A stretch of 64,000 bases of DNA from Pagrus major (taxonomy: Eukaryota; Chordata; Actinopteri; Spariformes; Sparidae), in the NCBI RefSeq assembly GCF_040436345.1, contig NC_133224.1, positions 7,122,741-7,186,740 of the forward strand. The letters are read 5' to 3'. The translations under genes were made by a program, and so were the position numbers. This document shows, piece by piece, positions 1,364 through 52,302 of the stretch; the first letter of the stretch is position 1, and each line of letters opens with the position of its first letter. The notes below the pieces were generated by a model that was not told the origin of the DNA, did not search any database, and worked only from the letters and a program-made list of their open reading frames with translations.

Positions 1364-4300
1364 GTAAGTCACATCACATTTCTTTCAAAGTGAAGATTAT
1401 ACAGCTCATTAAAAGGCTGTTTTGGTTCAAATATATATTTAAAGTAAATCTTCAGTATGTACTGATTGTGCAGAATGTATTTGATCCACTATCAATACAT
1501 GTTTTCATTCTGAAAATAATTTTCCAGCACCACCCCGGCCTGTCCTCACTGTGTCTCCATCATGGCTGAGTGCTGGAGCCTCAGTAACTCTGAGCTGCAG
1601 TGTTGAAGATCAATCTGCAGGATGGAGGTTCTACTGGTATAAGACTGTTCCTGATATATCAAACTACTATTACAGCTATGAGCTGCTACCTGGCAGCAGC
1701 AGTGGGACTGAACAGGATTCCTACATTGTTCATGGACAGACACACACAGCAGGATATATGTGCAGAGCTGGAAGAGGAGATCCAGTGTTGTACACTGATT
1801 GCAGTAAACCTAAGTTTGTCTGGTCTGCAGGTCAGTTTGTTTCTATCTCTTAAGAAACAGATGTTATATCAGCTCTGTTCATCTTTTTCCTAAATGATGA
1901 TAAACATACAGTATCTTGAAAAAAAGAATATTAATTTACTGTGGTCTGATGAGCTTGTCTCTCTCACTACGTCAAGCTAAACTTCATGCTTTCCACCTTA
2001 CAAAGCTAAAGACTATTTGAATTGAGACATTTTATATCTGAAGATCTCTGTGCTCTGTTCGACCTCTTATCACATGTTGTTTTTCAGATTTTCACTCATC
2101 AGTGTCTCTCACAGTGAGTCCTGACAGAGCTCAACACTTCACCTCTGACTCTGTCTCACTGAGCTGTGAGGGAAACTCTACTAAGTGGAGAGTGAAGTGG
2201 TTATCAGCTTACAACAGATACCCGTCAGACTGCACCATCTGGGGGACAATGACTGGATCTACATGCAAACCAAGGACTTACGGGCGCAGTGATGCAGTGT
2301 TCTGGTGTGAGTCTGGATCAGGAGAGTTCAGCAACGCAGTCAACATCACTATACAGGGTATGATTTCACTACATTACACTTTTTTTACATATCAATTAAT
2401 TGATTAATTAATTTGGAGAAAAAAAATAATATTAATTTAAAATACATTAATAATTATTTAAAATAAACAGTCCATTGTGTGTTGAGAACAGTACACTGAC
2501 ATTTTAAGAGTTTTGCTCGTTAGCTGGCTTAATGATATCTTAAGTAATTAATTGTTTTCAATTAATAAAAATAGTTAAGTATTCATTTAAACTGTGATTT
2601 TAAACCTGTACTACACGTTAGCAGTGCCAACTTCACCTCACTATGATGAGGACTGGATGCAGTATACAGCAGGTTTGTGTAGGTTTATGGGTCATCTGTA
2701 CTTCAGTTTTTATGTCAGTGAACATGTTTAAAGGTCCAGTGTGTAGGATTTAGTGGCCTCTAGCAGTGAGGTTTCACATTCAACCAACTGAATACCCCTC
2801 TCCCCACTTTTGGTTTCCAAGTGAGTCGGAGAAAACTAGAAACATAAAAACATGAAGGTCCTCTCTAGAGCCAGTGTTTGTTTTGTTCATTGTGATCTAC
2901 TGTAGAAATATGGAGGTGTCACATGGCAGACTTAATGGAGGAGGACCTGCTGTCTGTACAAATAAAAGACTCATTCTTAGGTGAAAGATAACATTCTTAA
3001 TTCAGGTGATTGTGCACTCATTTAAACATTATGTATATTATATCTTCCATTTCTGCCAATAGATCCCCCTAAATCCTACACACTGGACCTTTAAAGCACT
3101 GTGTGGTTTGTAGGACCCTGTTGACACCTGTTGTTTATTTGGTAAAAGGTGACTTGTACAGTAGGAGACTCAAGGTGTTTGATAAAACATCAGATTTTAT
3201 GATCACTCTGTTAAATCAGTGAGCAATAAGCAGAAGAAAAACCCAGTATGTATCTTTTCTCATCTCTCTACATCCACTCATTCTCAAGTTCCTCGACCAG
3301 CTGATCTCTGACTGAAACCTCGTATTCTTTGACTGTTTAGCAGATGAAGATATGATCCTGCTGAGTCCTGCCCGTCCTGTGACTGAGGGAGAGTCTGTTA
3401 GTCTGAGCTGCAAATTAAGAAACCAAACATTTGGCTCCAGTGTGTTTTTCTATCACAATGAGAAACTGATTCAAAATGACAGCAGATGGGAGTTAAATAT
3501 CTCTGCAGTGTCAAAGTCAGATGAAGGATTCTACAAGTGTCAACACTCAGGACAAGAGTCAGCACAGAGCTGGATGTCAGTTCAGGGTGAGTAGGATTAA
3601 AATAATTATTCCATTTTCTTTTATATGTGAACTGTTTCTGTCTGAGAAAGAAGTTTAGCTGAATACTGAACCAAATTCAAAGTAGTTTTAGTTTCAGACA
3701 CCTTCACCTGTTGGTTTCCGTTGACTCTGATTAAAGCACTTTGTAAATTCAGTTTTAGAAACATGTTCATTAATAGTTAATATTTACTATTTATTACAGC
3801 AGTGTCCAGGCCTGAAAGCTCTCCATTTCCTGTACTGTTGATTGTTGGGCTGGTTTGTGGACTCGTTCTTGTTCTTCCTCTGCTCGTGTTGTTTTGCTAC
3901 AAAGCGTCCAAGGGTGAGATCTTCTTCTTCTATTATTAAATGTTTTTTTAATTATTCAAATACACACACATACTCTGATCTCATGAGATAGAATAGCAGT
4001 ATAACAACCATCTAACAACAAATGTCTTTTTCACAGATTCATGCTTTGTCAGGTAGGTGCAACACTCTCTCATCTCATTTTGAACATAACATCAACACAT
4101 GTTTATGTTCCTATTTAAATGTATTGTATCTGATATATGTTGTAGACCAGTCCAGCCTGAGAGCGCCAACGCAGATCATGTGGTCTACGAGAATGATAAT
4201 TACTCTGCTCTTCTCCATGGTAAGCAGTTAAACTAATCTTTATTTTTTACATATAATATTTTAAGTAATCTAAAAAAATCTTAGTTTGTTTAATAAGTAT

Positions 4301-7300
4301 TGGAAACGAACCTTGACTTGATTTTCATTTCTCTGTAGGTGATGTTTGTCTCTATGAAACAGTCAGTGGCTGTCAAGAAGCTGAACATGGTACAGTTTAT
4401 ACCTTTTTATTTAACATGGAGCTGTTAGAAATATGAGACAATTTAATTTAACTGTAAATGACTTGTTGACAATCCTTGAGCGTATTTATTTGTCTGAATG
4501 ACATATTTTAGACTGAGTTACACATCTAACAACAAATGTCTTTTTCACAGATTCAGTCTTTGTCAGGTAGGTGCAACACTCTCTCATCTCATTTTAAACA
4601 TAACATCAACACATGTTTATGTTCCTATTTAAATGTATTGTATCTGATATGTGTTGTAGACCAGTCCAGCCGGAGAGCGCCAACGCAAATCATGTGGACT
4701 ACGAGAATGATCATTACTCCTCTCTTCTCCATGGTAAGCAGTTAAACTAATATTATAAGTCTAATCTTACATATTTATACAGTGGGGTCCAAAAGTCTGA
4801 GGCCATTGAAAATCTCTAATATCACGTAAACCAGGAAATAATCAGAAAATGCTAAGAAAGTGTGAGTCTTAGCATCAAATCATTTCCAGACTCAAGGTTT
4901 CTAAAGGGGCAGTGCATGTAACAATATAAACTATAAAACACTTCACAGAAACTGGATCAGTTGTATCCAAAGACAGACCCAAAGTGGCCACACCATCAGA
5001 AGATCAAAAAATCAAGTTTGTTCCCTGAAAGATAGAAAAGCAACTTCATCACAGATACAGAATTTGATAAATACACAAGAATCCAATCAGGTGAAGTCTG
5101 TCAAAGGAAAGCTGTCTTGTAGTTGTCTCGAGGACGATTAGCCGTTCCTAAACCACTTCTTAGTTGGTGAAGCAAGACGAAAGACTGGAGGTGGGTTAAG
5201 AAATACCAGAATTCTTCAAAGAATCGACTTTTAACTCAAATTGTTCAGCTGATATTCCATCCATCCATCCATCCATTATCTGCCGCTTATCCGGAGCCGG
5301 GTCGCGGGGGCAGCTGCCTGAGCAGGGATACCCAGACTTCCCTCTCCCCGGACACTTCCTCCAGCTCCTCCGGATCCCAAGGCGTTCCCAGGCCAGCCGG
5401 GCGACATAGTCACTCCAGCGTGTCCTGGGTCTTCCTCGGGGTCTCCTCCTCCCGGTGGGGCATGCCTGGAACACCTCCCGAGGGAGGCGTCCAGGGGGCA
5501 TCCGATACAGATGCCCGAGCCACCTCAGCTGACTCCTCTTGATGTGGAGGAGCAGCGGTTCTACTCCGAGCTCCTCCCGTGTGACAGAGCTCCTCACCCT
5601 ATCTCTAAGGGAGCGCCCTGCCACCCTGCGGAGGAAACTCATTTCGGCCGCTTGTATCCGGGATCTTATTCTTTCGGTCATGACCCAAAGTTCATGACCA
5701 TAGGTGAGGGTAGGAACATAGACTGACCGGTAAATCGAGAGCTTCGCCTTTCGGCTCAGCTCTCTCTTCACCACGACTGACCGATACAACGACCGCATTA
5801 CTGCGGCCGCCGCACCGATCCGCCTGTCAATCTCACGCTCCATCCTTCCCTCACTCGTGAACAAGACCCCGAGATACTTAAACTCCTCCACTTGAGGCAG
5901 GAACTCTCCCCCAACCTGGAGGGAACAAGCCACCTTTTTCCGGTCGAGAACCATGGCCTCAGACTTGGAGGTGCTGATTCTCATCCCAGCTGCTTCACAC
6001 TCGGCTGCAAACCGCCCCAGGACATGCTGAAGGTCCCGGCTCGAAGGAGCCAACAAGACAACATCATCTGCGAAAAGCAGGGATGAAATCCGGTGGCTCC
6101 CGAACCAGATCCCCTCCGGCCCATGACTGCGCCTAGAAATTCCGTCCATAAAAATAATGAACAGAACCGGTGACAAAGGGCAGCCCTGCCGGAGTCCAAC
6201 ATGTACTGGAAACAGGTCTGACTTACTGCCGGCAATGCGAATCAAGCTCCTGCTCCGGTCGTACAGGGACCGTACAGCCCTTAGTAGAGGGCCCTCGACC
6301 CCGTACTCCCGAAGCACCCCCCACAGAATGCCACGAGGGACACGGTCGAATGCCTTCTCCAAGTCCACAAAACACATGTGGACTGGTTGGGCAAACTCCC
6401 ATGAACCCTCCAGCACCCTGCTGAGGGTATAGAGCTGGTCCAGTGTTCCACGGCCAGGACGAAAACCGCATTGTTCCTCCTGAATCCAATGTTCGACTAT
6501 CGGCTGAATTCTCCTCTCCAGTACCCTGGAATAGACTTTACCAGGGAGGCTGAGGAGTGTGATCCCCCCCAGAATTTCCTCGAGGCCGACCGGTAGTCCT
6601 TCTCCATGGCCTCCCCGAACTTTTCCCAGACCCGAGTCTTTGCTTCCGCGACCGCCCGTGCTGCAGCACGCTTGGCCTGCCGGTACCCGTCAGCTGCCTC
6701 AGGAGTCCCCCGAGCCAGCCAGGCTCGATAGGACTCCTTCTTCAGCTTGACAGCATCCCTTACTGTCGGTGTCCACCACTGAGTTCGGGGATTGCCGCCA
6801 CGACAGGCACCGGAGACCTTACGGCCACAGCTCCGAACAGCCGCGTCAACAATGGAGGCGGAGAACAAGGCCCATTCAGACTCAATGTCCCCAGCCTCCC
6901 TCGGGATCTGGTCAAAGCTCTCCCGGAGGTGGGAGTTGTAGACCTCCCCGACAGAGGGTTCCACCAGACATTCCCAGCAGACCCTCACAGTACGTTTGGG
7001 TCTGCCAAGTCTGTCCAGCTTCCTCCCCTGCCAGCGAAACCAACTCACCACCAGGTGGTGATCAGTTGACAGCTCAGCCCCTCTCTTTACCCGAGTGTCC
7101 AAGACATACGGCCGGAGGTCAGATGACACGACCACAAAGTCGATCATCGACCTCCGGCCTAGGGTGTCCTGGTGCCATGTGCACTGATGAACACCCTTAT
7201 GCTTGAACATGGTGTTCGTTATGGACAAACTGTGACTGGCACAGAAGTCCAACAACAGAACACCACTCGGGTTCAGATCAGGGAGGCCGTTCCTCCCAAT

Positions 7301-8188
7301 CACACCCCTCCAGGCAACACTGTTGCTGCCTATGTGAGCGTTGAAGTCCCCCAGCAGAACGATGGAGTCCCCAGTTGGAGCACTCTCCAGTACCCCTCCC
7401 AGGGACTCCAAGAAGGCCGGGTACTCTGCACTGCCGTTTGGCCCATAGGCCGAAACAACAGTGAGAGACCTATCCCCGACCCGGAGGCGCAGGGAAACGA
7501 CCCTCTCGTTCACCGGGGAAAACTCCAACACATGGCGGCTGAGCTGGGGAGCTATGAGCAAGCCCACACCAGCTCGCCGCCTCTCACCGCGGGCAACTCC
7601 AGAGTAGAAGAGAGTCCAGCCTCTCTCAAGGAGTTGGGTTCCAGAGCCCAGACCGTGCGTGGAGGAGAGCCCGACTATCTCTAGCCGGTAGCGCTCAACC
7701 TCCCGCACCAGTTCAGGCAGCTGATATTATCATCTGCAATAAAAAATATTATTACATTCAAAACAAATGCAAAATAGAGTTGTCGCGTGGTCTCAGTCTT
7801 TTTGACTCTATAAACACATTTTAAATGATCAAAACAATCTGAGGAGTCACATGATTCATTTGTTGTTTACAGTTAAAGTGGTTAAATTAACCTTGACTTG
7901 ATTTTCATTTCTCTGTAGGTGATGTTTGTCTCTATGACACAATCAGAGGCCGTCAAGAAGCTGAACATGGTACAGTTTATACCTTTTTATTTAACATGGA
8001 GCTGTTAGAAAAACTGAAATAGGACAATTAACTATAAATGGCTCATTAACAATTCTTTAAGTAAAAAAATATTTACATTTCAAATTAATCCAATGATGGA
8101 TTAACATATTATTTTATTGATTGTAAAGAATCCTGACATAAACCTCAATCTCTTTTTGTTGACTTTGCTTTTTCTTTCAGGTCAATAA
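1088..8188 (+). CDS. Receptor A: LITR/FCRL-like Ig receptor with two ITAM-spaced tail cassettes (5' partial)
   Basis: Exons: 1088-1363, 1528-1830, 2088-2357, 3344-3586 (Ig domains); 3800-3913 (TM); 4037-4052, 4146-4219, 4339-4389 (tail cassette 1); 4551-4566, 4660-4733, 7919-7969 (cassette 2); 8181-8188 (two last residues and TAA). All join in frame with GT/AG borders, and every Ig exon is phase 1-1. Each Ig exon has the B-strand LxC and F-strand YxC or WxC cysteines. The TM segment has no charged residue. The tail holds YSAL-x7-YETV and YSSL-x7-YDTI, the second matching ITAM spacing exactly. YEN motifs, which could bind Grb2-type SH2 domains, precede both. The ITIM exons of B and C were not found. 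The product is probably a type I leukocyte surface receptor able to signal by itself. The family call rests on domain look and synteny with B-D; the ligand is unknown. Confidence 0.82.
1528..1830 (+). CDS. A, Ig exon ('[12 protein letters not shown]' type)
   Basis: Phase 1-1 Ig exon of 303 nt, one codon longer than the 300-nt copies in B, C and D. The cysteine contexts are VTLSCSVE and YMCRAGRG. It normally follows the 'TLQPNW' exon at a distance of about 165 nt. Confidence 0.85.
2088..2357 (+). CDS. A, Ig exon ('[15 protein letters not shown]' type)
   Basis: 270-nt phase 1-1 exon with cysteines in VSLSCEGN and FWCESGSG, and extra cysteines between them (SDCTIWG, GSTCKP) that could form a second disulfide. 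Paralogues: B 34518, C 45914, D 61147. Confidence 0.85.
2727..3096. repeat. TIR element (MITE-like) in intron of A
   Basis: The ends are inverted copies: TTTAAAGGTCCAGTGTGTAG starts the element and its complement ends it, with TTAA at both outer edges. No coding capacity was seen. The same element is in D at about 61776-62121, and a 5' remnant is in B at 35039-35106. The superfamily is not assigned. Confidence 0.75.
3344..3586 (+). CDS. A, membrane-proximal Ig exon ('[10 protein letters not shown]' type)
   Basis: 243-nt exon, one Ig domain with cysteines in VSLSCKLR and YKCQHSG. It is the last Ig domain before the TM exon in all four receptors. Confidence 0.87.
3800..3913 (+). CDS. A, stalk and transmembrane exon
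   Basis: The exon starts with a short AVSRPESS stalk, then a hydrophobic run ([16 protein letters not shown]...) ending in a basic CYKASK stop-transfer patch. There is no acidic or basic residue in the membrane span, which argues against pairing with a charged adaptor. Confidence 0.87.
4037..4389 (+). CDS. A, cytoplasmic cassette 1 (three exons)
   Basis: Exons 4037-4052 (DSCFVR), 4146-4219 (ends [14 protein letters not shown]) and 4339-4389 ([11 protein letters not shown]...). Together they are 141 nt (47 residues), phase 1-1 as a unit. The pair YSAL and YETV is spaced by seven residues, ITAM-like with V in place of the last L/I. Confidence 0.82.
4551..7969 (+). CDS. A, cytoplasmic cassette 2 (tandem copy, split by transposons)
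   Basis: Exons 4551-4566 (DSVFVR), 4660-4733 ([14 protein letters not shown]) and 7919-7969 ([11 protein letters not shown]...). The layout is the same as cassette 1, including the flanking intron sequence, so it arose by tandem duplication. YSSL-x7-YDTI fits the ITAM rule YxxL/I-x6-8-YxxL/I. The intron between the two half-motifs is about 3.2 kb because of the Tc1-like and LINE insertions; the splice sites on both sides are intact. Confidence 0.8.
5196..6416 (-). pseudogene. LINE reverse transcriptase region
   Basis: Palm motifs are visible: [22 protein letters not shown] (about residues 75-86) and the catalytic FADD at residues 115-118 (about 6063-6074). A thumb and C-terminal region with [16 protein letters not shown] follows. 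The frame is open to the end of the element, but the first part of the domain is in another frame upstream (about 6417-6560), so this copy is not functional. Confidence 0.82.
5246..7728 (-). mobile_element. Rex3/RTE-type non-LTR retrotransposon with 11-bp target duplication
   Basis: The sequence CAGCTGATATT stands on both sides (5246-5256 and 7718-7728), giving the element body 5257-7717 on the - strand. The 3' end is a tandem GATG tail (CCATCCATCC... on the + strand). It encodes an APE-type endonuclease followed by a reverse transcriptase, the RTE order, and the GATG tail is characteristic of fish Rex3. The 5' end is truncated within the endonuclease start. Higher GC than the surrounding DNA marks it as an insert. 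Confidence 0.85.
6497..7708 (-). pseudogene. LINE endonuclease region
   Basis: 403-codon frame. APE endonuclease motifs are LLGDFNAH (residues about 118-125), MIDFVVVSS (188-196) and STDHHLV (214-220). The N-terminal strand with the first metal ligand is missing because of 5' truncation, so the enzyme should be inactive. Near 6555-6575 the frame runs from the linker straight into a shifted copy of the reverse-transcriptase fingers, which suggests an internal deletion plus a one-base shift in a C-rich run. Confidence 0.8.
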
Positions 8189-8740
8189 AGAAATCTGTAT
8201 CAACTGAACCAATGGAGCGGACGACAACATGAAAAACTACATCTGTGTACTTTCACAGCTTTCATGTGATCACTGTGTGCAGCTGTGCTGTCCAAATAAC
8301 AAACATTATTTGGTAAAGTGAATCTAATAGCAGGTCATTTAAAATAAATGTATCATATGGTTTTAATCTTCTGTTGTATTTGGTATAAATAGTTTAGATT
8401 ATCACATATAATAATTGAAATGTTTTGTTGTTTACGTCCGGTATGTTCTGACACCTTTGTTGTTGTTGTTTGTTGTTGCAAAGAACAAATATTATGTGTC
8501 GACACTCGGTACGAGGTGATTGTGCAACTTTAAAGTCAGCATCTTTTGTAGTTTTTGATTAAATCGAGTTAAACATTTATAACATTTAATGTATTTTATG
8601 TGAAAAAAATCCTGTTACACAAAGAAGCTTTCTTCTGTCATTTTAAAAATGGCTTGATATTCTCTATATTTTATGTTTTGTTATATATATATATGTATAT
8701 TTTTAAAAGGTCGTTGAACATTTTATGCATCAATAAACTT
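8181..8740 (+). other. A, terminal exon and 3' UTR
   Basis: The acceptor CTTTCAG ends at 8180. The exon adds GT CAA TAA, so the protein ends in ...EAEHGQ. The 3' UTR runs to the poly(A) signal. The UTR end is related to those of B and C (similar text around the AATAAA and in the following CAGCTGTCAG). Confidence 0.7.
8732..8737 (+). terminator. Poly(A) signal of A
   Basis: AATAAA, about 545 nt after the stop codon, in the same context (CATCAATAAAC) as the signals of B and C. Confidence 0.7.
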
Positions 8741-9229
8741 GTTCCAGCAATAAGCTGTCAGCAGTGTTCCTCATAGATTTAGAGGGGAAAAGGAATATAA
8801 CTGTAGTTACTTCAGTTTGAAAAGTCTCATCATATTTGTGTCACTACTCACTCTTCATAATGTGTATTAGAGTCAAGCCCATTCAGGCATATGTTGTACT
8901 GCATGTCAATTATCTTAGTGTCTCAACATGATGTAGAGATGATGCCTTGACATTGGAAGCCAACAGAACTTTATGTGCTTGTGCCGGTAGGGGTCAGCAT
9001 TCAACAGCTAAGCCTAAATCTATTTACATTTTTTACATAACTTGTAGTTACATAGCAATGGCAGATAGCAGTAATACCACTGTGCTGATGTTATATGACA
9101 GTTGCTTCAAATAAGTGGGGGGTTCAAAAATAGACTGCTCTGATTATCTGACTGTGTTCTGGTTGGACTAAGTTTCCTGCAGCTTCAGAGTGAAACTAGT
9201 TGTTTATGTTGTTTACCTTCCAGATTTCT
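8741..9229. other. Intergenic, nothing recognised
   Basis: Space between the 3' end of A and the V-set island. No exon or repeat was recognised, except that about 9130-9190 resembles 24725-24790. Confidence 0.5.
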
Positions 9230-10841: not shown

Positions 10842-11846
10842 TTAAAATACGTCATCATGGACACTTTTCTTAATTCCTCCACTGTACTTTTGTTTGTTAG
10901 ACAGACAGTGAATAAATACCATGTAACAAACAACCAACACAAGTACCACTGCTGCTGTCAGTCCCAGTCCACAGTAGAGGCCGATCATTTCCCAACTGAC
11001 CATGTTGGGTCTCTCAGGTGTGTCTGTGTTGGGTTTCTCAGGTTCTGGCCAATCCCTCGCTGCTGTAAAGAGAGCAAACAACAGAACAGCTGAAGTTGTG
11101 ACATATTTCTCGGATACTGTGAGAATGAAGTGAAGGATTGTGGATTGTGGTCGTCCTCAATACTTTTCTTCAGGTTCTTATTGATCCAAAAAAGCTGCTG
11201 AAATGAACTTGTTAATAAAGTTCTACTAACTTACCAGAGACGATGAGCCAACATTCACCAAAGTCCACACCATAGTTTGTCCTCACATCACACAGGTACC
11301 GGCCTGAGTCCTCAGTCCTGAGTCTGGACACATTAAGTCTGAGTCGTCCGTCTCTGATGACATCTTTGTCCCACTGGACTCGTCCTACAAACTGTTGATC
11401 TCGAGACTCTGGGACCACAACACCTCCACGTAGTTCAAACAGGACTGAGACTTTATGATCAGTTTTCATCTCACAGAAGGTAAAAAGGGACTTGGGAGAA
11501 GTATCAGTTGTGGTTGGGAACATCCATTCCAGTGTGATGTTGTGGTTCTCCTCTGCCTGATAGGAGGTCTGTGCCACATTCACTACAAATGTTCCTGTTG
11601 AGGAGACAGAGAGGGAAAGTGAGGAGCACTGACAACTTCAACATGGCAGCCTTTAAACTCCATCTACAAATGTTTCTGTGGACAGTTTAGTGACGTCTCA
11701 GAGCTGCAGAGGCTCATCAACATCAACTGTTTGCTCACATGTGGGCTACTTTAACTGATTCATTGAATCACGGTGTAATAAAGTGAAGCTGTAAACTAAC
11801 CACAGACACAGTTGAGGCTGATGAGCAGCAGGATCCTGCAGATCAT
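10842..11846 (-). CDS. E: V-set Ig membrane protein (B7/butyrophilin-like)
   Basis: Exons on the - strand: 11846-11801 (signal peptide, MICRILLLISLNCVC), 11594-11235 (V-set, 360 nt) and 11062-10842 (stalk, TM, tail, stop). They join in frame to 208 codons plus stop. A 5' UTR exon probably ends at 12032, where CTCTCT is followed by GTAAGT. The V domain has F-strand YLCDV and an N-glycosylation site at NITLEW, but the usual B-strand cysteine is a tryptophan. The stalk is rich in P and E (WPEPEKPNTDTPERP). The TM is uncharged, and the short tail (KQKYSGGIKKSVHDDVF) has no ITIM. F is a near copy on the other strand. It is probably a leukocyte co-signalling-type surface protein; the exact family name is uncertain. 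Confidence 0.78.
11235..11594 (-). CDS. E, V-set exon
   Basis: 360-nt phase 1-1 exon, the same length as in F and G. It differs from F's V domain by only a few residues (for example D/H in TTTDTSP and I/N in CWLIVSG). Confidence 0.82.
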
Positions 11847-12479
11847 CTTCTTCCTGTGAGAGGAGACAGAGGTGAAGAGTCATGTGATCACAGTTCAGTC
11901 CTCACATGTACCACAACAGACATCTACAGTCTAAACAGAGTCAGTCAATAACATCCCTATAGTATAATAATAATAATGTCCCTCATACAGTTGACTGATT
12001 CTTGATGACTTCAACAAACACGGTTACTTACAGAGAGGAGCTGCTGAAGTCTTTGGTCAATTAAGAAAGAAATCATGAATAGCGGGTCGAGTAAGGTCAA
12101 CTGGGTTAGGGGAGCTCTGTCTGTCTGTCAGAGATCGCTGTTACTGACTGGCTTTTATATGCCTGTGTTAACAGGCATCAGCTTTCATCCGATATGTCCA
12201 AGGCTATTTGCAGCCACACTCTTGTCACCTGATTCAGAATACTTTGTCAGTTACATTTTCTATTTTAGTCATCACAGACAGCTCCACTAACCCACTGCAC
12301 AGCTCTGTTTTAATACTGAGACAGATCAAGTGTTTCACCTTTTCTCAAGCAGAACAACTCTCACTGTCTTAAATCAGCTTTCCATCAATAATCTCCCACT
12401 TCATGGATGGTTTGTTCGGGGTTTAAAGTTCACCTCCATGTGTGTGACCCTGCTCCTACCTGGTCCTGGAGAACTTTGA

Positions 12480-13851: not shown

Positions 13852-14133
13852 CATTGTTGCTCCCGGAGGTGTCCACATACATTTGGGTACTTTTGGGGGT
13901 GTTTTTATTATGAAGTTAAATGATTTTCTGTTTTCTTCGTTTAATTTGTTGAACCGCAGAGCTGCTGATGTGTTTTTACTGAGTCACCATCAAAGCTGTT
14001 GGACAGCAGGACAATAAAGACAAAGGAGTATTGTAAAGACTAAAGACAGGCTGTAGATGTCTGTTGTGGTACATGTGAGGACTGAACTGTGATCACATGA
14101 CTCTTCACCTCTGTCTCCTCTCACAGGGAGAAG

Positions 14134-15338
14134 ATGATCTGCAGGATCCTGTTGCTCATCAGCCTCAACTGTGTCTGTGGTTAGTTTACAGCTTCACTTT
14201 ATTACACCGTGATTCAATGAATCAGTTAAAGTAGCCACATGTGAGCAAACAGTTGATGTTGATGAGCCTCTGCAGCTCTGAGACGTCACTAAACTGTCCA
14301 CAGAAACATGTGTAGATGGAGTTTAAAGGCTGCCATGTTGAAGTTGTCAGTGTGTCTGCTCCTCACTTTCCCTCTCTGTCTCCTCAACAGGAACATTTGT
14401 AGTGAATGTGGCACAGACCTCCTATCAGGCAGAGGAGAACCACAACATCACACTGGAATGGATGTTCCCAACCACAACTCACACTTCTCCCAAGTCCCTT
14501 TTTACCTTCTGTGAGATGAAAACTGATCATAAAGTCTCAGTCCTGTTTGAACTACGTGGAGGTGTTGTGGTCCCAGAGTCTCGAGATCAACAGTTTGTAG
14601 GACGAGTCCAGTGGGACAAAGACGTCATCAGAGACGGACGACTCAGACTTAATGTGTCCAGACTCAGGACCGAGGACTCAGGCCGGTACCTGTGTGATGT
14701 GAGGACAAACTATGGTGTGGACTTTGGTGAATGTTGGCTCAATGTCTCTGGTGAGTTAGTAGAACTTTATTAACAAGTTCATTTCAGCAGCTTTTTTGGA
14801 TCAATAAGAACCTGAAGAAAAGTATTGAGGACGACCACAATCCACAATCCTTCACTTCATTCTCACAGTATCCGAGAAATATGTCACAACTTCAGCTGTT
14901 CTGTTGTTTGGTCTCTTTACAGCAGCGAGGGATTGGCCAGAACCTGAGAGACCCAACACAGACACACCTGAGAGACCCAACAGGGTCAGTTGGGGAATGA
15001 TCGGCCTCTACTGTGGACTGGGACTGACAGCAGCAGTGGTCGTTATGTGGTTCGTTCGTCGCCTTTTATGTGGTCACTGTGTGTCTGCTGAGTCCAGTGA
15101 AGGACCACAGGTAATAGCTTTATCAACACTGTAAATGTGACCGTTAAAACACATCCTGCCTTCATGTTGTTCAGTACGTGTCCATGATATAAGAGTCAGA
15201 GGAGATAAACAATAATGGAGTTGATGGAGGAAACGTTGTTCTTTACCTTTATGTTGTCCTTTATTTTGACAGGACGTCTCATCAAACTCTGTCACTTATT
15301 ACACAGATCTGAAATCTGCTCTATGTTCACTTTACTAA
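14134..15338 (+). CDS. F: V-set Ig membrane protein with tyrosine-based tail
   Basis: Exons: 14134-14179 (signal peptide MICRILLLISLNCVC), 14391-14750 (V-set), 14923-15110 (stalk, TM, first tail part) and 15273-15338 (tail end, TAA). They join to 219 codons plus stop. A non-coding first exon may end at 13371 (GATG then GTAAGT), with its acceptor just before 14127. The V domain has NITLEW (N-glycosylation; tryptophan in place of the B-strand cysteine), FCEMK, YLCDV and ECWL. After the TM (GLYCGLGLTAAVVVMWF) comes a basic patch (VRRLL), and the last exon has NSVTYYTDLKS, a TxYxxL switch-like motif. E lacks this exon. The likely role is an inhibitory or co-signalling leukocyte surface protein. 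Confidence 0.8.
14391..14750 (+). CDS. F, V-set exon
   Basis: The acceptor is CCTCAACAG and the donor GTGAGT. 360 nt, phase 1-1. It keeps DSGRYLCDVR, the D-x-G-x-Y-x-C signature of a V-set F strand. Confidence 0.83.
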
Positions 15339-18899: not shown

Positions 18900-21800
18900 C
18901 TGTGAAGAGATTTAACAAATATTAGCCACTGTCTACAGATTTATGTTAACAGAAAATGAAGAATTATAATTATACACGTTTTTAGATTTAAATTATGATT
19001 GCATTAATATGTGAGCATGACCTTAATGTTGTGGCTGGTAAAGATGGGGCTAATTCTAATTACTTTATATACTTGAGTATAGAGTAGCTTAATCAAGAAT
19101 AATATATCATAATTTGGTAATTGATTATAGAGAGCTGAAGCCACTCTCCTTCTGGTGGACCCCATGGGACCTTATTTCATGAAAACTTTGTATGTTAGTG
19201 AATAAAGAGAGACAAATAATTTATTGATTCTGTTTGAATTGTGTCATGAAACACACACACGATGTTTAAAAGATATTTTCTAAGACAATAAAATCTCAGT
19301 TTGTCATCAAACTAATGAAATATCAGACTGTGAAAATACGTCATTGCAAAGACGACACAGCCAACAGTGTCGTTAGTGACGTTGTCTCCTAACTTAAACT
19401 TTGTAGGGCTGCTCCTGTATATTAGCAGCTCGCAGAACTGAACCAGAACCAACTCTCCTTTCACATAACTGCAGTTGTCAATATGAGCAGATTTATTGTG
19501 ATTTTTCATCTTTTTACGACCTTGTGGTGTTGGTGACGTGCGTTGAGTGAGACGATGTAGTTCACTGAGCGCTTTAACATAAAACTACATGAGATTTTAC
19601 TTTAATTACAACAAACTGAGACTTTATTGACTTAAAAAAAAGTAGCACTCCACAAACTGGCAGCTACCAAGACTGTTGATGCTGATGACACACAGACACC
19701 ACGTGATACCAATAGCGTTACTATTGGCTGACAAACCATGTTAGAAACCAACCATTTTTTCTTTTTCTTTTTTACCATTTGAAACAAGTCTCCAACTACT
19801 TCAGTTGTTTAGGAGAATGCTGCAACATTGTTTTTGCTGTGAAGCTCCAGAAATGTTTTGTGGAAACTTGACCTGACTTTCCATCAGCATGGAGGGAGGA
19901 GATAACTTTAGCTTTTAGTAATCAGACACCCATGATGCAGGTGTTAAATTAAATCAACACATTTACACTGTGGGTAATGCCGGGATCAGACTACATGGTA
20001 TTTATGTCGTTCACAATGGTCACCATGTCAGATTAAGCAATAAAGTGGTATAAATTCTTGCCATATCTTGGTTGGAAGACTGGCAACGTGAGTTCATAGG
20101 TCATCGTTGAGGCGGGACAGGACGGTCTTGTGCTCAGACACAAACAAGAAAAAGAAAAAACATTGTGGACCCGTTCCTGGGTCTCACGAAGAGTGAACAG
20201 TGTGGCTTGTCTGTCCTTCAGAGAGAACTTGAGGTAAGTTAATGAACGTGTACATGTCAAAATCATTACATTACTGACAGCAGGGATGCTGCTGTCCCGA
20301 CGTTCATAATCAGGCCCACGACCAGATCATGTTAAAATCTGCCTGAATTCGGGTCGTCTGATCCCGGCATAAGGGGAACAACAGTGGGGCTTTACTAATT
20401 TGTGTAACTAATAATGCAGTGGCCCTGGTATAACTGGGTTAATATCAATGTACATGATTGTGAAAACAACATACAACTTGTCAGTGATGTCATCTTACCT
20501 GTAACATTGAGGTTACATGCCTTGTGGTCAGAATCTTTATTGATGGCAACAATACACTGATAGGTGCCTGTGTCATTGAGCCTCAGATCCGTAAGTAGAT
20601 ATTCAATCCGTCCTTTCTTGGCGAGCTCTGGATCACACCACGCTCGACCTCTGTAGTGTTCATCTTGATATGGTTCGACGTCAGGTGGGCTGTTGTAGAG
20701 GAAAACTGTCCTTTGTTGGTTCACGCTCCAAATACGTATATGCAGTGAGGCAGAAGACATGTCAGTATTGACAGGGAAGAGCCATGTCAGCGTGATGTTA
20801 CTGTGTTCCACTACCTCCCAGTCCTCCCTGGTCACATTCACAGTGAATGGCCTCTTACCTGCAGGGGTGAAAGGACAAAACACAAACACTGAGTGAAGGA
20901 ACTTACACAAGAATTAAAGCTGCGCGTTATCAGTACGTTGATTAGCAGTTACTTTAGCAACAAGTAAAGCTATCTGTCCCAAGCTGCTTCCGAGACATGA
21001 CCCGGTTTCACCTGAATCACTGGATGGAGTTATAGGGCCGCAAAGCGCAGCGCACTAGTGCGTTTAGGGCGTGTACATGTCCATTTTGCTTGTTAAATGG
21101 TGGAAAATCTGGGCGCAAAGAGGTGGTACTTAGACTCTGAATTTGTCATGGGTGTGTTTTGGGCGAAAAATAAATCAAACCAATCCAAGTAACGTCTCCC
21201 TGTAAGAGCCAGGTGTGCCAGGACTCGTCTTCAGTGAGGGACATGTGTGTGATCCTCGGCTGCTGGACCCTCTGCCCCGCTGTTTCACAACAACTCTGTT
21301 TGACTGCATATGAAGAAATAAACTGATGTTAAACTGAGGAGGAGGAGAAGCTGCTGCGTCCCTCTGTGTGGGCGCAGATCTAAGTCGGTGGATCAGGCGG
21401 GACGGATGATAAAAAGTATCATCCTGATCAATAACGGTGGGGTGACGGGAGAAATACGTCCTTAATGAGGAAAATATTAATGACATCACTTGCAGCGATC
21501 CTCCAGCAGCAGAAACAATATGTGTATTTGTACATTAATGTGAGGAACAGATAATAAACTTCATTGATTATTTAAAACTCCTTACGCGTTTCTTTCTGAG
21601 AGTTTATAACTACAGCTTTTAGTTTTGTTGATTAAATGAGCCACAATGTGTTACAGTGACATGACTGTGTTCAATGAAATGCTTAAAATAACTGAGAGCA
21701 GCCTCTCAAATCATAAAATCAGAGTGTATGAATGGTGTGAAGCTGCCTGTGTAGGCACATCTAACGTGTCCTCAAATAGCAGAAAACAGACTGTGCTTTG

Positions 21801-28310: not shown

Positions 28311-28350
28311 GAGGAAGTTGATGAAAAACTCTGCTCTCACATTTATAAGA
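28311..28350 (+). promoter_or_regulatory. Candidate core promoter of B
   Basis: GAGGAAGT (28311-28318), a PU.1/Ets-type box, lies about 30 nt before a TATA-like TTTATAAG (28342-28349), about 100 nt before the start codon. D has the same pair (52171 and 52202). C keeps the TATA-like box (41763) but has AGAAGAAGT in place of the Ets box. Confidence 0.4.
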
Positions 28351-28446
28351 AATTTAACTTCTCTTTTCTTTCTGCTGCGTTTATATTAATACAAAGTAGG
28401 AAGTTTGATCAGAAGCAGAGCGACAGTGTCGGTGCTGGATGTGAAG

Positions 28447-28888
28447 ATGGGGCCCACTCTGCTCGGTGTGCTCGGGTTACTCTGTGAGTACATCTGACTT
28501 TCTATGTGATGTTCAGTATTTATATCAGTGTAGTAGTTGTGTAGGCAGGACCTTTGTTGCTGATTTGGCTTGGTTCAGATTGGAGGATTATGTCCATACC
28601 TGGACAAAACATGTACAGTATATGATCTAAGGTGTTATGTATATAGCTGTGGAGTTACATTTATTGCTTATTTTACTGGGCCTCTATATATTGAAGAGTT
28701 TTTAAATGTGTTTCCCACCTCTGTAGCTCTGTAGCAGGATATCATCACAGAAATGTGTGATACTGTTGATTGATAAACAATAGTTACCACTGATGAAACT
28801 CCAGCTGGATTTTGTATTTGATTCTGGTCTAATGAAGTTTTCATCTTTATTTTAGTGCTGAATACACTCCTGTACGGACATGCTGAAG
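28447..28888 (+). CDS. B, signal peptide exons
   Basis: 28447-28483 (MGPTLLGVLGLL, donor GTGAGT) and 28856-28888 (LLNTLLYGHAE, donor GTGACT). The split leader, with a 33-nt second exon, is the layout of FcR/FCRL genes. Confidence 0.82.
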
Positions 28889-30053
28889 GTGACTAGTTAT
28901 CTTTTCTATATTTACTGATTATTGCAGTTGTGTTTTTCCATATATGTTTCATTTTACTCAGTGCACATTATGAAATGACTGGATTAGTGCTCAATTGTTA
29001 AGGGAAGCTACTTGGAAAGCGTAGCTCTGCATGATACCACTGACTTCACACTGGAATAAGTTTAGTGTCTGTAAAGCTACTTTAGTTTGGTTCACTGAAG
29101 CTGTGTAGAAAAAGCTGTTCAAACTGCTTTGTTAGAAAGATCAAATGAACAAAACCTTATGCAAAATTAAAACAGAATTGTTACGACCGTAGTGGTCGTA
29201 TAAACATATGAGTTTACCTACACTCACGTATGAGTGAGTGTAGGTTGTCCAGGGAGCTGGTTTTGAGACTTGCTAAGTTAGTTAGCCATCTTGGGCAGGC
29301 CAGTAAAGTTTGGGTGTCTCTGCAGTTTGTTTCCCTTAGTTTTATACTTTGCACAGCAACTTGGTTTTGTGTGAGATGGCTGCTTTTGTTTTGGTCATTT
29401 TGGTGATGTGTGGCTGTAATTAACATTTTGTGTGCAGTAACTTGTAGTTTGTGACCTTTGGTTGTGGTAACTGTACTCCACTGGTGTAAGCTGACAACAT
29501 TTGTGTGTAGTGGTGACTACAGAGTGAAGCCTTTTGTGTGGTGGTTGTTGCAGTCAACTTTTGGTGTGGTGACTCAGGTGTTACTGCTTTAGTGTACTTA
29601 ATTACAGTTAGTGTGTTTGGGATGGAGTCACTCCACAGATCAGTGGATCTTGAGTGGTGGGTGTGGCTTCCCAGTGTGTCCAGTCACTTTGTTTCTGGGT
29701 TACTATCTCCATTAGTTACCTGTGGTTGGAGACCACAAGGTGTCCATTTTGTGTTGTGGTAGTGGCAGTTCACTTGTGTTGGATCTATGTGTGCTGCTGT
29801 TAGTGGATGGCAGAAATTCTGTAGTTTAACTACTCGTTGTGACCCTTTCGTTTTGTGGCTGTTGCACTGTTGTGTTGGTCACCTGTTGCTGTTTTGTGGT
29901 GAGTGTTACGACAGTAATTATGTGTTTGGTTTTAGTGGGAGTGGCACCCACTGATTTTGGTCCTGTAGAAAAGATGAAGTGTCATTTTTATGTAGATTGT
30001 GGTTCTTTAGGGCAGAAATGTTTTAGGGGGGGTATAAACTCTCTCTCTCTCTC

Positions 30054-36100: not shown

Positions 36101-38041
36101 CAAATCTTCATCTGTTTTACAGATACATGCTTCAATAGGTTGGTGCAAAACTGTTTTGTCACATTTTGAACATAACAGCAAGACATTCAATGTTCCTGTT
36201 TATTAAATGTTTTGTGTTGTCTTTATTTTTTAGGCCAATCCAGTTTGAGAGCTCCAACACAGATCAGAATGAGGCTCAGTGCAATGAATACTCCTCTTCT
36301 CAACATGGTAAACATAGAAAATAATCTTATTTACATAAGATATACAGTATATATGCCTTTTCTTTAGTATCATACAATTAAAAAGATGACTGACTGTGGC
36401 TTGTTTTCTCTGCTCTGTAGGTGTCTGTCTGTATGAATCAGTCAAACACTCTGAAGACACTGAAAATGGTACAGTTTATATCTTTTATTAACATGCATTG
36501 CAGAAACACTCTGTTAAATTTAAGTGAAAAGATTTATGGTTGACAGCAGTGAGATCACTTTCATTATTTCAGATTAGTCAGGATCATTGACTGTATATAA
36601 AGATGGGCGACATGACAGCTCCCCAAAAGTGAAGCCAGAACATCTTGAACTGCTGGTTAGCATTTAGCTCAAAGCATTGCTTTACCTCCAGCCTGAGAGG
36701 TGTGTTAGCATCAATTTACACAATTTCCTTATTATCAGTGTGCATCATGAAAATATCACCTTTGATGACACGTGACTATTAATGATGTAGTTACTTTGAA
36801 AATGTGTCTTTTTCATCACGTATCTACATCACTGTGTCTGCTGCACGTGTGTCATCATTGCTGTGTAGATGTACCATATGTTCTACTCTGGATCATGTAC
36901 TGTTTCTGAATCTATTGAGGTTCTGCAGTGAACGTTAGAAATGCAACCACTGCATGAATTAAGAGAACTGATCCCAAGTGATCGATATAAAATCCTGTAA
37001 CTAAATATGCACATTTCAGTTGCAGGTGGATCCCAGGACGTCACATATTCTTCAATTATACTTAAAAACATTGGCAAGAAGGGTGAGTTCTCTAAATAAA
37101 GGCAATAAATAGAATTATCTTTATTGTAAAAAGTTTTGATTTATTTTTTTTCTGTATGGATTCATGTGATTGTCTTCACAGGGAAGCAACATACACCAGA
37201 GGAGACATCAATTTACTCTGATGTGAGGACAGGAGCTGCAGGTACAGTCAGTTACAACAGTCATGTTCAAAGTTTGGTTTGAAATGTTGCATATCATTTT
37301 ACTGGAGGTAATTATTTGTTGTTATTTGTTGTTAATCTTTGTCTCCTTGGGTAAGTATTAAAAACTACCACTAGGTGTCACCAGAGTTGTAAATCTCACA
37401 CATTACTCTGGCCTTTCACACTTTGGTGTTGGTGTTGTGATGAGAACTCATTTGGAAATATTTTGATTTTCATTTAAACACTAGAAGCTGCTGAATTGTC
37501 ATGAAATAAACACAAGAAGATCCAGAATGTATTTTATTTTTATTCTACCTGTCAATTCATCTGTTCATCCATCCAGCCGTACAGGGCCGTAGTGTGTACG
37601 TCTGTGGAGCAAACAAACCCTAACATCTGCCCTCTGTTTCAGACGACAATCTGTTGTATGCCCAAGTCTTCAGCCACAATAAAGACAAAGGCAAGAAGAA
37701 GAAAGGTCAGTAAAGTCTGCATCCACCTGCAGTCGTTATCATCCAACATGTTGGTCTTGGTTCAGCTGTTTGTTGTTACTTATTGTTTTTATGACTCATA
37801 TTTCTTTTAAGTGATGTATTGTTTATTATCTGCATTGCTTAAGAACAATTTATTTTATTTTATACATAACTTATTCTGTAAAAATGTAAACTACTCCAGT
37901 GGAGACGTTAACACTGACAATGTTCATGTCTTATCTCCATTTATAGGAAAATCAGCTCCTGCAGCAACTGATGAAACTGTTTATTCTGAAGTCAGAGCGG
38001 GATCATCTCTCGGTAATAATGCTGCCCTTCTAGAGAAGTGA
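28447..38041 (+). CDS. Receptor B: LITR/FCRL-like, six Ig domains, ITIM/ITSM tail (complete)
   Basis: Exons: 28447-28483, 28856-28888, 30845-31105, 31738-32013, 33517-33792, 33961-34260, 34518-34787, 35304-35546, 35883-35996, 36123-36138, 36234-36307, 36421-36468, 37020-37082, 37182-37241, 37643-37705, 37947-38041. The total is 2229 nt, 742 codons plus TGA, with no frame break. The signal peptide MGPTLLGVLGLLL...HAE is split over two small exons, as in Fc-receptor family genes. Six Ig domains, an uncharged TM, then a tail with three ITIMs (VTYSSI, SIYSDV, LLYAQV) and one switch motif (TVYSEV). These would recruit SHP-1/SHP-2-type phosphatases when phosphorylated. The start is the ATG opening the signal peptide. 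It is probably an inhibitory leukocyte receptor; the ligand is unknown. Confidence 0.87.
29178..30293. mobile_element. 1.1-kb insertion in intron 2 of B
   Basis: C and D have continuous text here (…ACAGAATATTACAC…), while B is interrupted after ACAGAATTG and resumes at AAATATTATAC. The insert starts TTACGACCGTAGTGGTCGTA, is TG-rich, contains the (GT)n tract and ends with AACAGGAAACAGAAAC and CCATGACACC, a terminus also seen (complement) at 39385-39430. The class is not certain; a solo LTR or non-autonomous element is possible. Confidence 0.55.
30042..30123. repeat. (CT)n/(GT)n microsatellite
   Basis: A short CT run followed by about 30 GT units with one TATG interruption. It produces long low-complexity frames on both strands that are not genes. 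Confidence 0.9.
30845..31105 (+). CDS. B, Ig exon 1 ('EFTLFEGDLV' type)
   Basis: 261 nt. Cysteines in VILRCKHR and WYKCKFDD. Closest in look to the FcR D3-type domain. D has its counterpart at 56571-56831. Confidence 0.85.
31738..32013 (+). CDS. B, Ig exon 2 ('VTLTADR' type)
   Basis: Cysteines in VTLTCAVE and YTCRGWRR. The acceptor can be at 31737 or three bases later (CAGCAG), changing one residue only. D has two copies (54739 and 57464). Confidence 0.83.
33517..33792 (+). CDS. B, Ig exon 3 ('TLQPNW' type)
   Basis: 276 nt. ITLRCEIK and GDYRCKG cysteine contexts. It begins [13 protein letters not shown] like A. Confidence 0.86.
33961..34260 (+). CDS. B, Ig exon 4 ('[12 protein letters not shown]' type)
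   Basis: 300 nt. VTLNCSVK and YMCRAGRG cysteine contexts; 168 nt after exon 3. Confidence 0.86.
34518..34787 (+). CDS. B, Ig exon 5 ('[15 protein letters not shown]' type)
   Basis: 270 nt. VSLSCEGN and FWCESGSG, plus the extra inner cysteine pair (SDCSTW, GSTCNI). Confidence 0.86.
35039..35106. repeat. 5' remnant of the TIR element seen in A and D
   Basis: TTTAAAGTCCAGTGTGAAGG and the next ~45 nt match the left end of 2727-3096; the rest is deleted. It shows that B's ancestor carried the element. Confidence 0.65.
35304..35546 (+). CDS. B, Ig exon 6 ('[10 protein letters not shown]' type)
   Basis: 243 nt, membrane-proximal domain. VSLSCKLR and YKCQYWR cysteine contexts. Confidence 0.86.
35883..35996 (+). 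CDS. B, transmembrane exon
   Basis: Stalk [10 protein letters not shown], then an uncharged span rich in L, V and G ending LLLYRYRPSKG. Confidence 0.87.
36123..36468 (+). CDS. B, juxtamembrane tail exons (degraded ITAM-like pair)
   Basis: 36123-36138 (DTCFNR), 36234-36307 (ends NEYSSSQH) and 36421-36468 (GVCLYESVKHSEDTEN). These match the three-exon cassette of A. In B the first tyrosine motif reads YSSS, so the +3 leucine is lost, and the exon is 12 nt shorter than in C and D. Confidence 0.82.
37020..38041 (+). CDS. B, ITIM/ITSM tail exons
   Basis: 37020-37082 (DVTYSSI), 37182-37241 (TSIYSDVR), 37643-37705 (NLLYAQVF, then a lysine-rich end) and 37947-38041 (DETVYSEV, then ...NNAALLEK and TGA). 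One tyrosine motif per exon. The last exon reads past a GTAATA donor that C may use, because the downstream acceptor region is deleted in B. Confidence 0.83.
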
Positions 38042-39972: not shown

Positions 39973-41867
39973 AAAACACTTCTGAGGTGTGAATAACGAC
40001 CCTGTCGAGTTCTTGGTATTTCACCATAACATCCTTATGTGTTAAAATGAAACTGGAAACATATTTCAGTCATGCTGATGAGAACTGGCTTTCTGTGTTC
40101 CTTCTCACACTAAGACATGCTTCAGTTTATTTCAGTATTTTGTTTGTTTGATGTGATTTTCCCTCATGATTATCCTCTTTGATATCTGGATTCATTGTAG
40201 TAACATGAGGTAAAAACAAAGGCATCTCAGTTTACAGATATCTTTACTCCATCTTATAAGGCTGCAGCTCACAGGCTCAAAGTTGCAAAACATTGATAGC
40301 TAATATAATACTTGGCCTTTTTAGATTAATATCTGAAGACACCTGACTGATAATCTTTTCTAATTTGTCAAATTTAATTCTTTAACTGAATAAAACACCA
40401 CTTTGTCTGTATTCTGAAGAAACAGCTGTTTTACTCTGGTGAGTATTTGCTGATGTAGTATTTGAAACAAAACTGTATGGGTGAAATAGTGTACACATAA
40501 CACAGGCCCACAACAAAATGTGGGCGCACAACTGTCAGCATTAACTGCATAAAATGCACAAATATACCTGCAATAAAATGTTAGTACATGGTCACACAAT
40601 TTAAAGGCAGTACTGTAGAGGAGAGTGTTTCATCCCCCCAGCACAGAATCTTTACATGGTCTCACTTTAAGGTGGTTTTGCAACCACTTCACCCACAGGA
40701 AGTGACAGAGCTCAGAGAAAAACAGAAACAGTTCTCATGAAGAGAAGTGAGCATGAAGAGAGCAGAAAGCTGTGCCCACTCTCACAGCTCCCCTCTGTTC
40801 CATCACTAGTACTCTGGCTCTGACTTTACAGGTTTTATCATGTTTTAGCAACAGTGAGGTGATTTAGTTGGTTCTGATGGTGCCAGTTTACAAAAACAAT
40901 TAAGTGGACCAATATCAAGTTTCAAATCTGATGCACCATGAGAAAATATTAAGTACAGTCATGGAAAAACCCTTAAATTTAAAAGATGGTGGCATAACAT
41001 AGGTCTACTTTATGTAGAGACAAACATAAGTTTTAAAAAACTTCAAACATACTACAAGTAACATTTAACTGATTATGAAACAGTCTCAATTTAATAATGA
41101 TGGCTCTATATGACCTACATAAGCAAACAAGACCATCAGTGAGAAGAATAGTTATTAGTTATTTTGAATGCAGCACAACTCAACCTGGATCAGAAATTAA
41201 ATTTGTCTCTCATCATTAACTACTGTACATTTTTTTTCTGTAATAAGGTCCCATGAGATCGACCAGAAGGGGCCTGACTTCTTTCTGCTTTGACATCATG
41301 AGTTACTGAGTGTAGATTGATGAGGGAAAACTGAATGTAATTGATTTTAGCATGAGGCTGCATCATAACAAAATGTGATAAAGGTGGAGGTACCTAAATA
41401 CTTTCTGACTGCACTGTGTATACACACAACACACACCCTCATTGAAATACAGGTACTGTGGATGCAAGAACTGTTGGACGGCATAACATGTACAGATTAG
41501 CTAACAATAAAATGCTACTGTGATGCAATATGATAAAATTCAATGATCTTGTGTTTCTTGGATGTGAAATAAGGATGAGGAACAAACCTTTGCAAGAGAG
41601 ATGAGCTAATAGTTTATTCACAGTGGACAGGAAGCATAAACATTTCAAAGTATGCTGCGGTCAAAGCCACTGCAGTTGTTTGAGCGTTGTGTGAAAGAGA
41701 AGAAAGAACAGAGTGAGAACTGCACTCAGAAGAAGAAGTTGATGATAAACTCTGCTCCCACATTTATAAGAAATTAAACTTCTATTTTCTTTCTGCTGCA
41801 GTTTTATCAATACAAAGTAGGAAGTTTGATCAGAAGAAGAGCGACAGTGTCGGTGCTGGATGTGAAG

Positions 41868-42309
41868 ATGGGTCACACTCTGCTCGGTGTGATCGGGTTA
41901 CTCTGTGAGTACATCTGACCTTCTATGTGATGTTCAGTATTTATATCAGTGTAGTAGTTGTGTAGGCAGGACCTTTGTTGCTGATTTGGCTTGGTTCAGA
42001 TTGGAGGATTATGTCCATACCTGGACAATACATGTACAGTATATGATCTAAGGTGTTATGTATATAGCTGTGGAGTTACATTTATTGCTTATTTTACTGG
42101 GCCTCTATATATTGAAGAGTTTTTAAATGTGTTTCCCACCTCTGTAGCTCTGTAGCAGGATATCATCACAGACATGTGTGATACTGTTGATTGATAAACA
42201 ATAGTTGCCACTGATGAAACTCCAGCTGGATTTTGTATTTGATTCTGGTCTAATGAAGTTTTCATCTTTATTTTAGTGCTGAATACACTCCTGTACGGAC
42301 ATGCTGAAG
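41868..42309 (+). CDS. C, signal peptide exons
   Basis: 41868-41904 (MGHTLLGVIGLL) and 42277-42309 (LLNTLLYGHAE). The second is identical in protein to those of B and D. Confidence 0.8.
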
Positions 42310-52300: not shown

Positions 52301-52302
52301 AG

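Follow-up and report, generated by a model that had tools for sequence, protein, structure and literature searches.

The making of activating and inhibitory receptors from one another is usually seen as an endpoint. Human FCGR2C has been described as a chimera (PMC6786274), gene conversion has been described for CEACAM1 and canine CEACAM28 (PMC2110893), and among the CEACAMs the exons for immunoreceptor tyrosine-based inhibition motifs (ITIMs) are reported to have been replaced by exons for activation motifs (ITAMs) (PMC2832619). According to the account in PMC3022915, the NILTs of carp and trout include members with an ITAM of their own, and a few NITRs carry one. FCRL1 is described with ITAM-like sequences, one in mouse and two in human, that contain V and other departures from the motif (PMC10562807). 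Here we report on a 64,000-nucleotide stretch of the Pagrus major genome (contig NC_133224.1, positions 7,122,741 to 7,186,740; hereafter the window), in which a gene that we call receptor A encodes immunoglobulin (Ig) domains, a transmembrane segment and a tail with a tandemly doubled, three-exon tyrosine cassette. A tblastn search with parts of receptor A against the whole window identified three relatives, B (33.5-38.0 kb), C (43.6-49.2 kb) and D (60.0-64.0 kb). We read receptor A, with a probability of about 0.6, as a self-signalling activating member of a paired FCRL/LITR-like set that has two tandem ITAM-type modules in its own tail. The reading is based on the intact doubled cassettes in an open frame, the uncharged transmembrane segment, the ITIM-type exons that were not found in receptor A, and an ectodomain close to those of B and D combined with a divergent transmembrane segment and tail; it is drawn by analogy with FcgammaRIIA/C, CEACAM3/28, the ITAM-bearing NILTs and FCRL1.

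The cassette exons a, b and c measure 16, 74 and 51 nucleotides, together 141 nucleotides or 47 codons, and the cassette both starts and ends in phase 1, so that its doubling preserves the frame (Table 1). The tail of receptor A consists of 47 residues from cassette 1, 47 residues from cassette 2, and then GQ and a stop codon, and the frame is open through the transmembrane segment and the tail. AG acceptors are present in all seven tail exons after the transmembrane exon, and GT donors in all six internal ones. At the DNA level, positions 4009-4240 and 4523-4754 are 95% identical, as are positions 4304-4431 and 7884-8011, with intron parts included in both comparisons, and the central part of the b-c intron cannot be aligned with confidence between the two copies. 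Tandem Repeats Finder returned no rows; the two cassette copies start 514 bases apart, and the longest period of the program is 500. The exon borders, the open frame and the 95% repeats thus bear out an initial annotation of this DNA, made from the sequence alone, which had claimed a tandemly duplicated three-exon cassette in the receptor's own tail. Translation also gives the motifs named there, YSAL-x7-YETV in cassette 1 and YSSL-x7-YDTI in cassette 2, and the half-motifs do lie on separate exons, with YSxL on exon b and YETV or YDTI on exon c. The same annotation is silent on the ITIM-bearing paralogues, on the absence of their exons from receptor A and on its chimeric build.

Paralogues B, C and D have a single cassette each, and B and C are without the first half-motif, its tyrosine being lost in C. 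In exon c of paralogue C, the acceptor has changed from tag to tat and there is an in-frame stop. The exons d, e, f and g of B and C are 63, 60, 63 and 66 nucleotides long, all in phase 1-1 and with one tyrosine each, and by the motif rules published in PMC2832619 and PMC4810170 they are of ITIM, ITIM, ITIM/Csk and ITSM (immunoreceptor tyrosine-based switch motif) type, respectively. The window ends just as ITIM-type exon d of paralogue D begins, so any inhibitory part of D would lie outside it. When the peptides of exons d-g were used as tblastn queries against the whole window, copies were found only in B and C, together with the start of exon d in D, and none was found near receptor A. Similarly, when receptor A positions 8010-8800 were compared by blastn with the regions of B, C and D, the matches were to the terminal exon and the 3′ untranslated region (3′UTR), apart from short weak ones (E = 0.014-0.6). 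The terminal exon region of receptor A aligns to that of C (from 49157 on) with a score of 38, compared with a maximum of 30 among 2000 dinucleotide-shuffled pairs, and its 3′UTR aligns to that of B with a score of 183, compared with a maximum of 68 among 200 shuffled pairs. On a plain reading of these alignments, receptor A would have lost exons d-g from between exon c and the terminal exon; B, C and D may instead have gained them. As in other paired receptors, the genes are linked, their ectodomains are closely similar and their tails carry opposite motifs.

Two further observations concern the paralogues. The D1 exon of paralogue C (43590-43720) is truncated, with two pieces of the receptor A exon aligning over 80 and 31 bases, so that C, with its dead exon c, may be partly decayed. 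Three stretches at 28330-28909, 41751-42330 and 52190-52760, the latter two of which are 96-97% alike to the first, contain what by eye are leader-like exons and a small second exon, and they are probably the 5′ ends of B, C and D.

The four Ig exons of receptor A, whose borders and phases were read by eye from the sequence, are each open in a single frame. The domains are encoded one per exon in phase 1, as in FcR/FCRL-type ectodomains. Among 93 matched PDB sequences, the top match to the ectodomain is 9loc_A, a chain named Fc receptor-like protein 5 (E = 1.1e-22), and the next matches are PIR-B and FcgammaRI. The hydrophobic stretch translated from the transmembrane exon contains no charged residue, and thus nothing there calls for an adaptor.

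It is also evident that the ectodomain and the tail of receptor A differ in their relationships to the paralogues. Ig exons D2-D4 share 92-98% DNA identity with those of B, C and D, and exon D1 is 97-98% identical to that of B and D (Ig-exon borders were offset by 1-3 bases in the segment comparison, which hardly affects the percentages). Between receptor A and paralogue D, identity is 97% (924/949) in the D3-D4 intron and 98% (238/244) in Ig exon D4, 80% at one end of the intron between exon D4 and the transmembrane exon and 85% at its other end, 91% in the transmembrane exon and 83% in the intron before exon a. From exon a to exon c it is 62-81% overall: exon b has 81%, the b-c intron 62% and exon c 73%. 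In steps of 60 bases, the break falls near 3610-3630. Over the segments compared above, B, C and D are 79-100% identical to one another, and throughout the transmembrane and tail part they are nearer to each other than to receptor A; the sole exception to both is the 60-base stretch that follows exon c in paralogue C (47%). Linked genes for activating and inhibitory receptors produce such a pattern when they recombine or undergo gene conversion. An inverted-repeat element with 36-nucleotide arms (92%) is found in the D3-D4 intron of both receptor A (2727-3095) and paralogue D (~61776-62123). The two genes are 92% identical over 411 bases at this element, whereas B aligns over 92 bases only and C gives no match; its sharing by receptor A and D fits a recent exchange between them.

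Table 1. Positions of the receptor A features and of the paralogue tails within the window
Feature	Position	Strand	Basis
Receptor A, four Ig-domain exons D1-D4	~1088-1363, 1528-1830, 2088-2357, 3344-3586	+	Pfam Ig_3/Ig_2
Receptor A, transmembrane exon	3800-3913	+	translation (30 residues)
Cassette 1 exon a, 16 nt	4037-4052	+	AG/GT borders; repeat copy
Cassette 1 exon b, 74 nt, YEN + YSAL	4146-4219	+	translation
Cassette 1 exon c, 51 nt, phase 1-1, YETV; weak donor ATG/GTACAG	4339-4389	+	translation, donor score
Cassette 2 exon a, 16 nt	4551-4566	+	repeat copy, AG/GT borders
Cassette 2 exon b, 74 nt, YEN + YSSL	4660-4733	+	repeat copy, translation
Nested transposon block in the b2-c2 intron	~4777-7811		inverted-repeat ends, Pfam domains, target-site duplication
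Cassette 2 exon c, 51 nt, YDTI, completes YSSL-x7-YDTI	7919-7969	+	repeat copy, translation
Receptor A, terminal exon (GQ-stop) and 3′UTR	8181-8768	+	likeness to C terminal exon and B/C 3′UTR; AATAAA at 8732
Paralogue B tail: one cassette YSSS...YESV, then exons d-g VTYSSI, SIYSDV, LLYAQV, TVYSEV	36123-38012	+	translation
Paralogue C tail: exon b NNSL, exon c dead, then VTYSLL, SIYSDV, LLYAQV, TVYSEV	47103-49021	+	translation
Paralogue D: cassette YNSL-x6-YESV, then start of exon d	63079-63430	+	translation

We then considered whether the cassettes qualify as ITAMs. Cassette 2, with YSSL-x7-YDTI, matches the strict spacing Yxx[L/I]-x6-8-Yxx[L/I], as the initial annotation had said. Both cassettes of receptor A have D at position -2 of the first tyrosine, which fits the form (E/D)x0-2Y quoted from PMC2832619, and E at position -4; the cassette of paralogue D has no acidic residue at -1 to -3. 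When the tail residues were shuffled 100,000 times, 0.34% of the shuffles contained one or more strict matches and 0.07% contained two or more loose ones (V allowed); since the tail had been selected for holding the motif, these figures give no more than an indication. Homology with the YNSL-x6-YESV cassette of paralogue D would be a better argument than the shuffles. The b-c intron is in phase 1 and splits a Gly codon of the spacer (LLH-G/D), and the phase-0 split of the first YxxL that is typical of CEACAMs was not found. It is plausible, judging from the motifs, that the cassettes act like an ITAM, cassette 2 as an ITAM and cassette 1 as an ITAM-like sequence, and this is the reading that we prefer; descent from a classical ITAM is not supported by the tests with the Pfam model and the intron phase. 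The idea that an exon-split ITAM is unusual in itself was rejected, since the ITAMs described for CEACAMs are also split by introns (PMC2832619). An ITAM in the receptor's own tail had initially been called not the usual layout, which is overstated in view of FCRL1 (PMC10562807) and of the NILTs and NITRs (PMC3022915). Searches of an open-access library did not turn up a doubled ITAM cassette in a fish FCRL or LITR. What appears to be new is the tandem doubling, the split in phase 1 and the lack of ITIM exons; the other elements have precedent.

Several observations weigh against receptor A being a self-signalling activating receptor. Cassette 1 and the cassette of paralogue D fit the ITAM spacing only if V is allowed at +3, and the strict form (E/D)xxY, as quoted from PMC10562807, is absent from the receptor A cassettes. 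The Pfam ITAM model (PF02189) matched neither cassette 1, cassette 2 nor the cassette of D at E values up to 10, and did not match the whole receptor A tail either, a negative result limited by the HMMER filters, which discard most weak matches; an FcR-gamma tail used as a control scored 29.8 bits against a cut-off of 22.2 (E = 6.7e-7). Purifying selection is not visible in the cassette exons, the comparison of cassettes 1 and 2 giving a nonsynonymous divergence (dN) of 0.096 (10 changes at 111 sites) and a synonymous divergence (dS) of 0.071 (2 changes at 30 sites). The two copies also differ more in their exons than in their introns (12/141 versus 5/219, P = 0.0095), and three trimmings of the tract ends gave P values of 0.0015, 0.0105 and 0.0014. 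Upstream of the break, the identity between receptor A and paralogue D is patchy (82-100% in 60-base steps), and in Ig exons D2 and D3 the three paralogues match receptor A about equally well (92-95%); by these identities the ectodomain of receptor A is a patchwork common to the cluster. Furthermore, the 5′ end of receptor A lies before the window, and the leader and any further 5′ domains would sit there.

The excess of exon changes is also seen between C and D (10/150 in exons versus 5/239 in introns, P = 0.03) and between B and D (10/138 versus 7/220, P = 0.12), where the intron counts combine the two introns between the transmembrane exon and exon b and leave out the b-c intron (9/108 and 17/103 differences, respectively), inclusion of which would make the excess smaller. 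A selection peculiar to receptor A was therefore rejected as its explanation, as these two pairs lean the same way. On such counts, the cassette exons are changing fast. Conserved tyrosines were likewise rejected as proof of constraint, because the changes are too few.

The tyrosines could also be repeated single docking sites, YEN for Grb2 and YDTI or YETV for Nck-like SH2 domains, in an ITAM-independent actin or phagocytic signalling. Receptor A has YEN twice in addition to YDTI and YETV, and the silence of the Pfam ITAM model would suit such sites. The membrane-proximal tail of the catfish receptor IpLITR 1.1b has YxN (Grb2) and YDEV (Nck), and its phagocytosis pathway is termed ITAM-independent by the authors, who also report association with Syk (PMC4810170). 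Mouse FCRL1, with its ITAM-like tail, is described as binding GRB2 and lowering phosphorylated ERK after B cell receptor stimulation (PMC10562807). Single sites need no pairing, whereas the pairing of YxxL with YxxV or YxxI is held at x7 in both copies of receptor A and at x6 in D; moreover, marsupial CEACAM tails are described as holding both YxN and a canonical ITAM (PMC2832619). We consider it rather unlikely that the cassettes are docking sites of this kind and nothing more. The residues at +3 of the paired motifs in receptor A are L, V, L and I, which also suit the sorting motif YxxPhi. The motifs might then serve mainly as signals for uptake and not recruit kinases, and the CEACAM authors leave it undecided whether ITAM-like motifs act in internalisation or in activation (PMC2832619). 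Sorting would leave unexplained both the spacing of the pairs and the missing ITIM-type exons of receptor A, and we give it very little credence.

The b2-c2 intron of receptor A is 3.2 kb long because it contains a Tc1-like element with a nested long interspersed nuclear element (LINE) inside. The outer ends of the block are alike as inverted repeats at 23 of 32 bases, and the outer element is presumably Tc1-like. The LINE (~5257-7717, minus strand) contains the Pfam domains RVT_1 and Exo_endo_phos in different frames, and a target-site duplication of 11 bp, CAGCTGATATT, lies on either side of it, at 5246 and 7718. The b1-c1 intron is without the block, which suggests that the insertion postdates the doubling or struck one copy only.

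Exon c (51 nucleotides, phase 1-1) and the pair of exons a and b (90 nucleotides) are frame-neutral units, unlike exon b by itself. In both copies of receptor A and in B, C and D, the exon c donor has a score of 2.1 bits, compared with 8.5-10.0 bits for the donors of the transmembrane exon and of exons a and b in receptor A (all scores use splice-donor frequencies). Since this donor is weak in all five cassettes, the weakness would be old and not peculiar to receptor A. On the plus strand, AATAAA and ATTAAA are absent from positions 4390-7737, so an isoform that ends in cassette 1 would have no canonical poly(A) hexamer there; an AATAAA is present at 7738, within the b2-c2 intron. Read-through of exon c1 would add 19 residues, and read-through of exon b2, which stops after HGKQLN, would leave YDTI out. 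Splice or polyadenylation variants that drop YDTI are possible on this evidence, including the on/off splice switch of the ITAM.

A long intron with nested elements, its AATAAA, the weak donors of exon c and the early stop after exon b2 would all be expected if receptor A were decaying or usually spliced short, so that a working double-ITAM tail is not made. The dN value, which is not below dS, points the same way, and paralogue C shows that decay occurs in this cluster. The tail splice sites are nevertheless intact, the frame is open through the transmembrane segment and the tail, and the four Ig exons are open. The LINE lies antisense to the receptor gene, an orientation that is usually tolerated in introns. 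We regard a decaying receptor A as improbable.

If receptor A is instead a self-signalling receptor, clustering by ligand would lead to phosphorylation of YSxL and YxT(V/I) by Src-family kinases, the phosphorylated cassettes would bind a tandem-SH2 kinase (Syk or ZAP-70), and the two YEN sites could dock Grb2. Receptor A would be expressed and would share ligands with its paralogues. A doubled ITAM in its own tail would allow stronger, adaptor-free signalling by a fish receptor. The ancestor may have had one ITAM-like cassette together with ITIM-type exons, which paralogue D fits as far as it is readable. Receptor A would then have shed the ITIM-type exons and doubled its cassette, that of B and C would have decayed, and the ectodomains may have stayed alike through recombination or gene conversion.

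Exons c, d, e, f and g are all 48-66 nucleotides long, multiples of 3, in phase 1 and with one tyrosine each. This common size range, phase and one-tyrosine plan suggests that ITAM spacing could have arisen by exon juxtaposition in an ITIM-type tail. We tentatively propose, as a possibility with the odds against it, that the ITAM is home-made: exons a and b with their YxxL would have come to lie beside exon c, after which the ITIM-type exons were dropped, the unit was doubled and the inhibitory copies lost it. If true, an ITAM would here have originated independently out of an array of ITIM-type exons, and the steps could still be seen within 64 kb. What seem to be an intermediate form (D, in its readable part), forms with a decayed cassette (B and C) and the derived activating form with its doubled module (receptor A) stand together in one cluster, so that the order of events is testable in related fishes.

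Elsewhere in the window, a head-to-head pair of single V-set receptor genes occupies 10899-11932 (minus strand) and 14048-15086 (plus strand), an inverted duplication with 96% identity over 1040 bases. A third V-set-like exon is found at 20395-20913 (minus strand), with a V-set score under the Pfam curated cut-off.

Receptor A and its paralogues resemble several known systems in part. Like the teleost NILTs and NITRs, they are fish Ig receptors of which some carry an ITAM and others ITIMs; the NILTs and NITRs differ in having V-type Ig domains, at most one ITAM per gene in the published table, and another layout of tail exons (PMC3022915). With the teleost LITRs, such as IpLITR 1.1b and 2.6b, receptor A shares multiple Ig domains and several tail tyrosines, and the LLYAQV of exon f in B (37643-37705) and C (48651-48713) resembles the Csk site AVYAQV (AVY453AQV) of IpLITR 1.1b (PMC4810170). 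IpLITR 2.6b is described with ITAM-bearing adaptors, unlike receptor A with its uncharged transmembrane segment and its own paired motifs. FCRL1 is similar in having an FCRL-type ectodomain, no ITIM, and ITAM-like sequences in its own tail with V among the +3 residues; an exon-cassette duplication is not part of its description in PMC10562807, and it is set beside receptor A by that description and not by gene structure. In human FCGR2A, FCGR2B and FCGR2C, an own-tail ITAM likewise stands against an ITIM, and FCGR2C is 2B-like in its 5′ part and 2A-like in its 3′ part, much as receptor A combines a D-like ectodomain with a divergent tail; the ITAM of FCGR2A and FCGR2C is single and lies within one exon (C3), unlike that of receptor A (PMC6786274). 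The set formed by CEACAM1 with CEACAM3 and CEACAM28, in mammals and in Xenopus too, also has inhibitory and activating members whose ectodomains are reported to be kept alike by gene conversion (PMC2832619, PMC2110893). Its activating tails are described with YxxL-x7-YxxI/M spread over several small exons (PMC2832619), and YxN is reported beside the ITAM in marsupials, as well as a YxN in CEACAM20. Receptor A belongs to a different Ig family, and whereas the CEACAM ITAMs are split in the first YxxL by a phase-0 intron, its motifs are split in the spacer by an intron of phase 1, and the whole unit is doubled.

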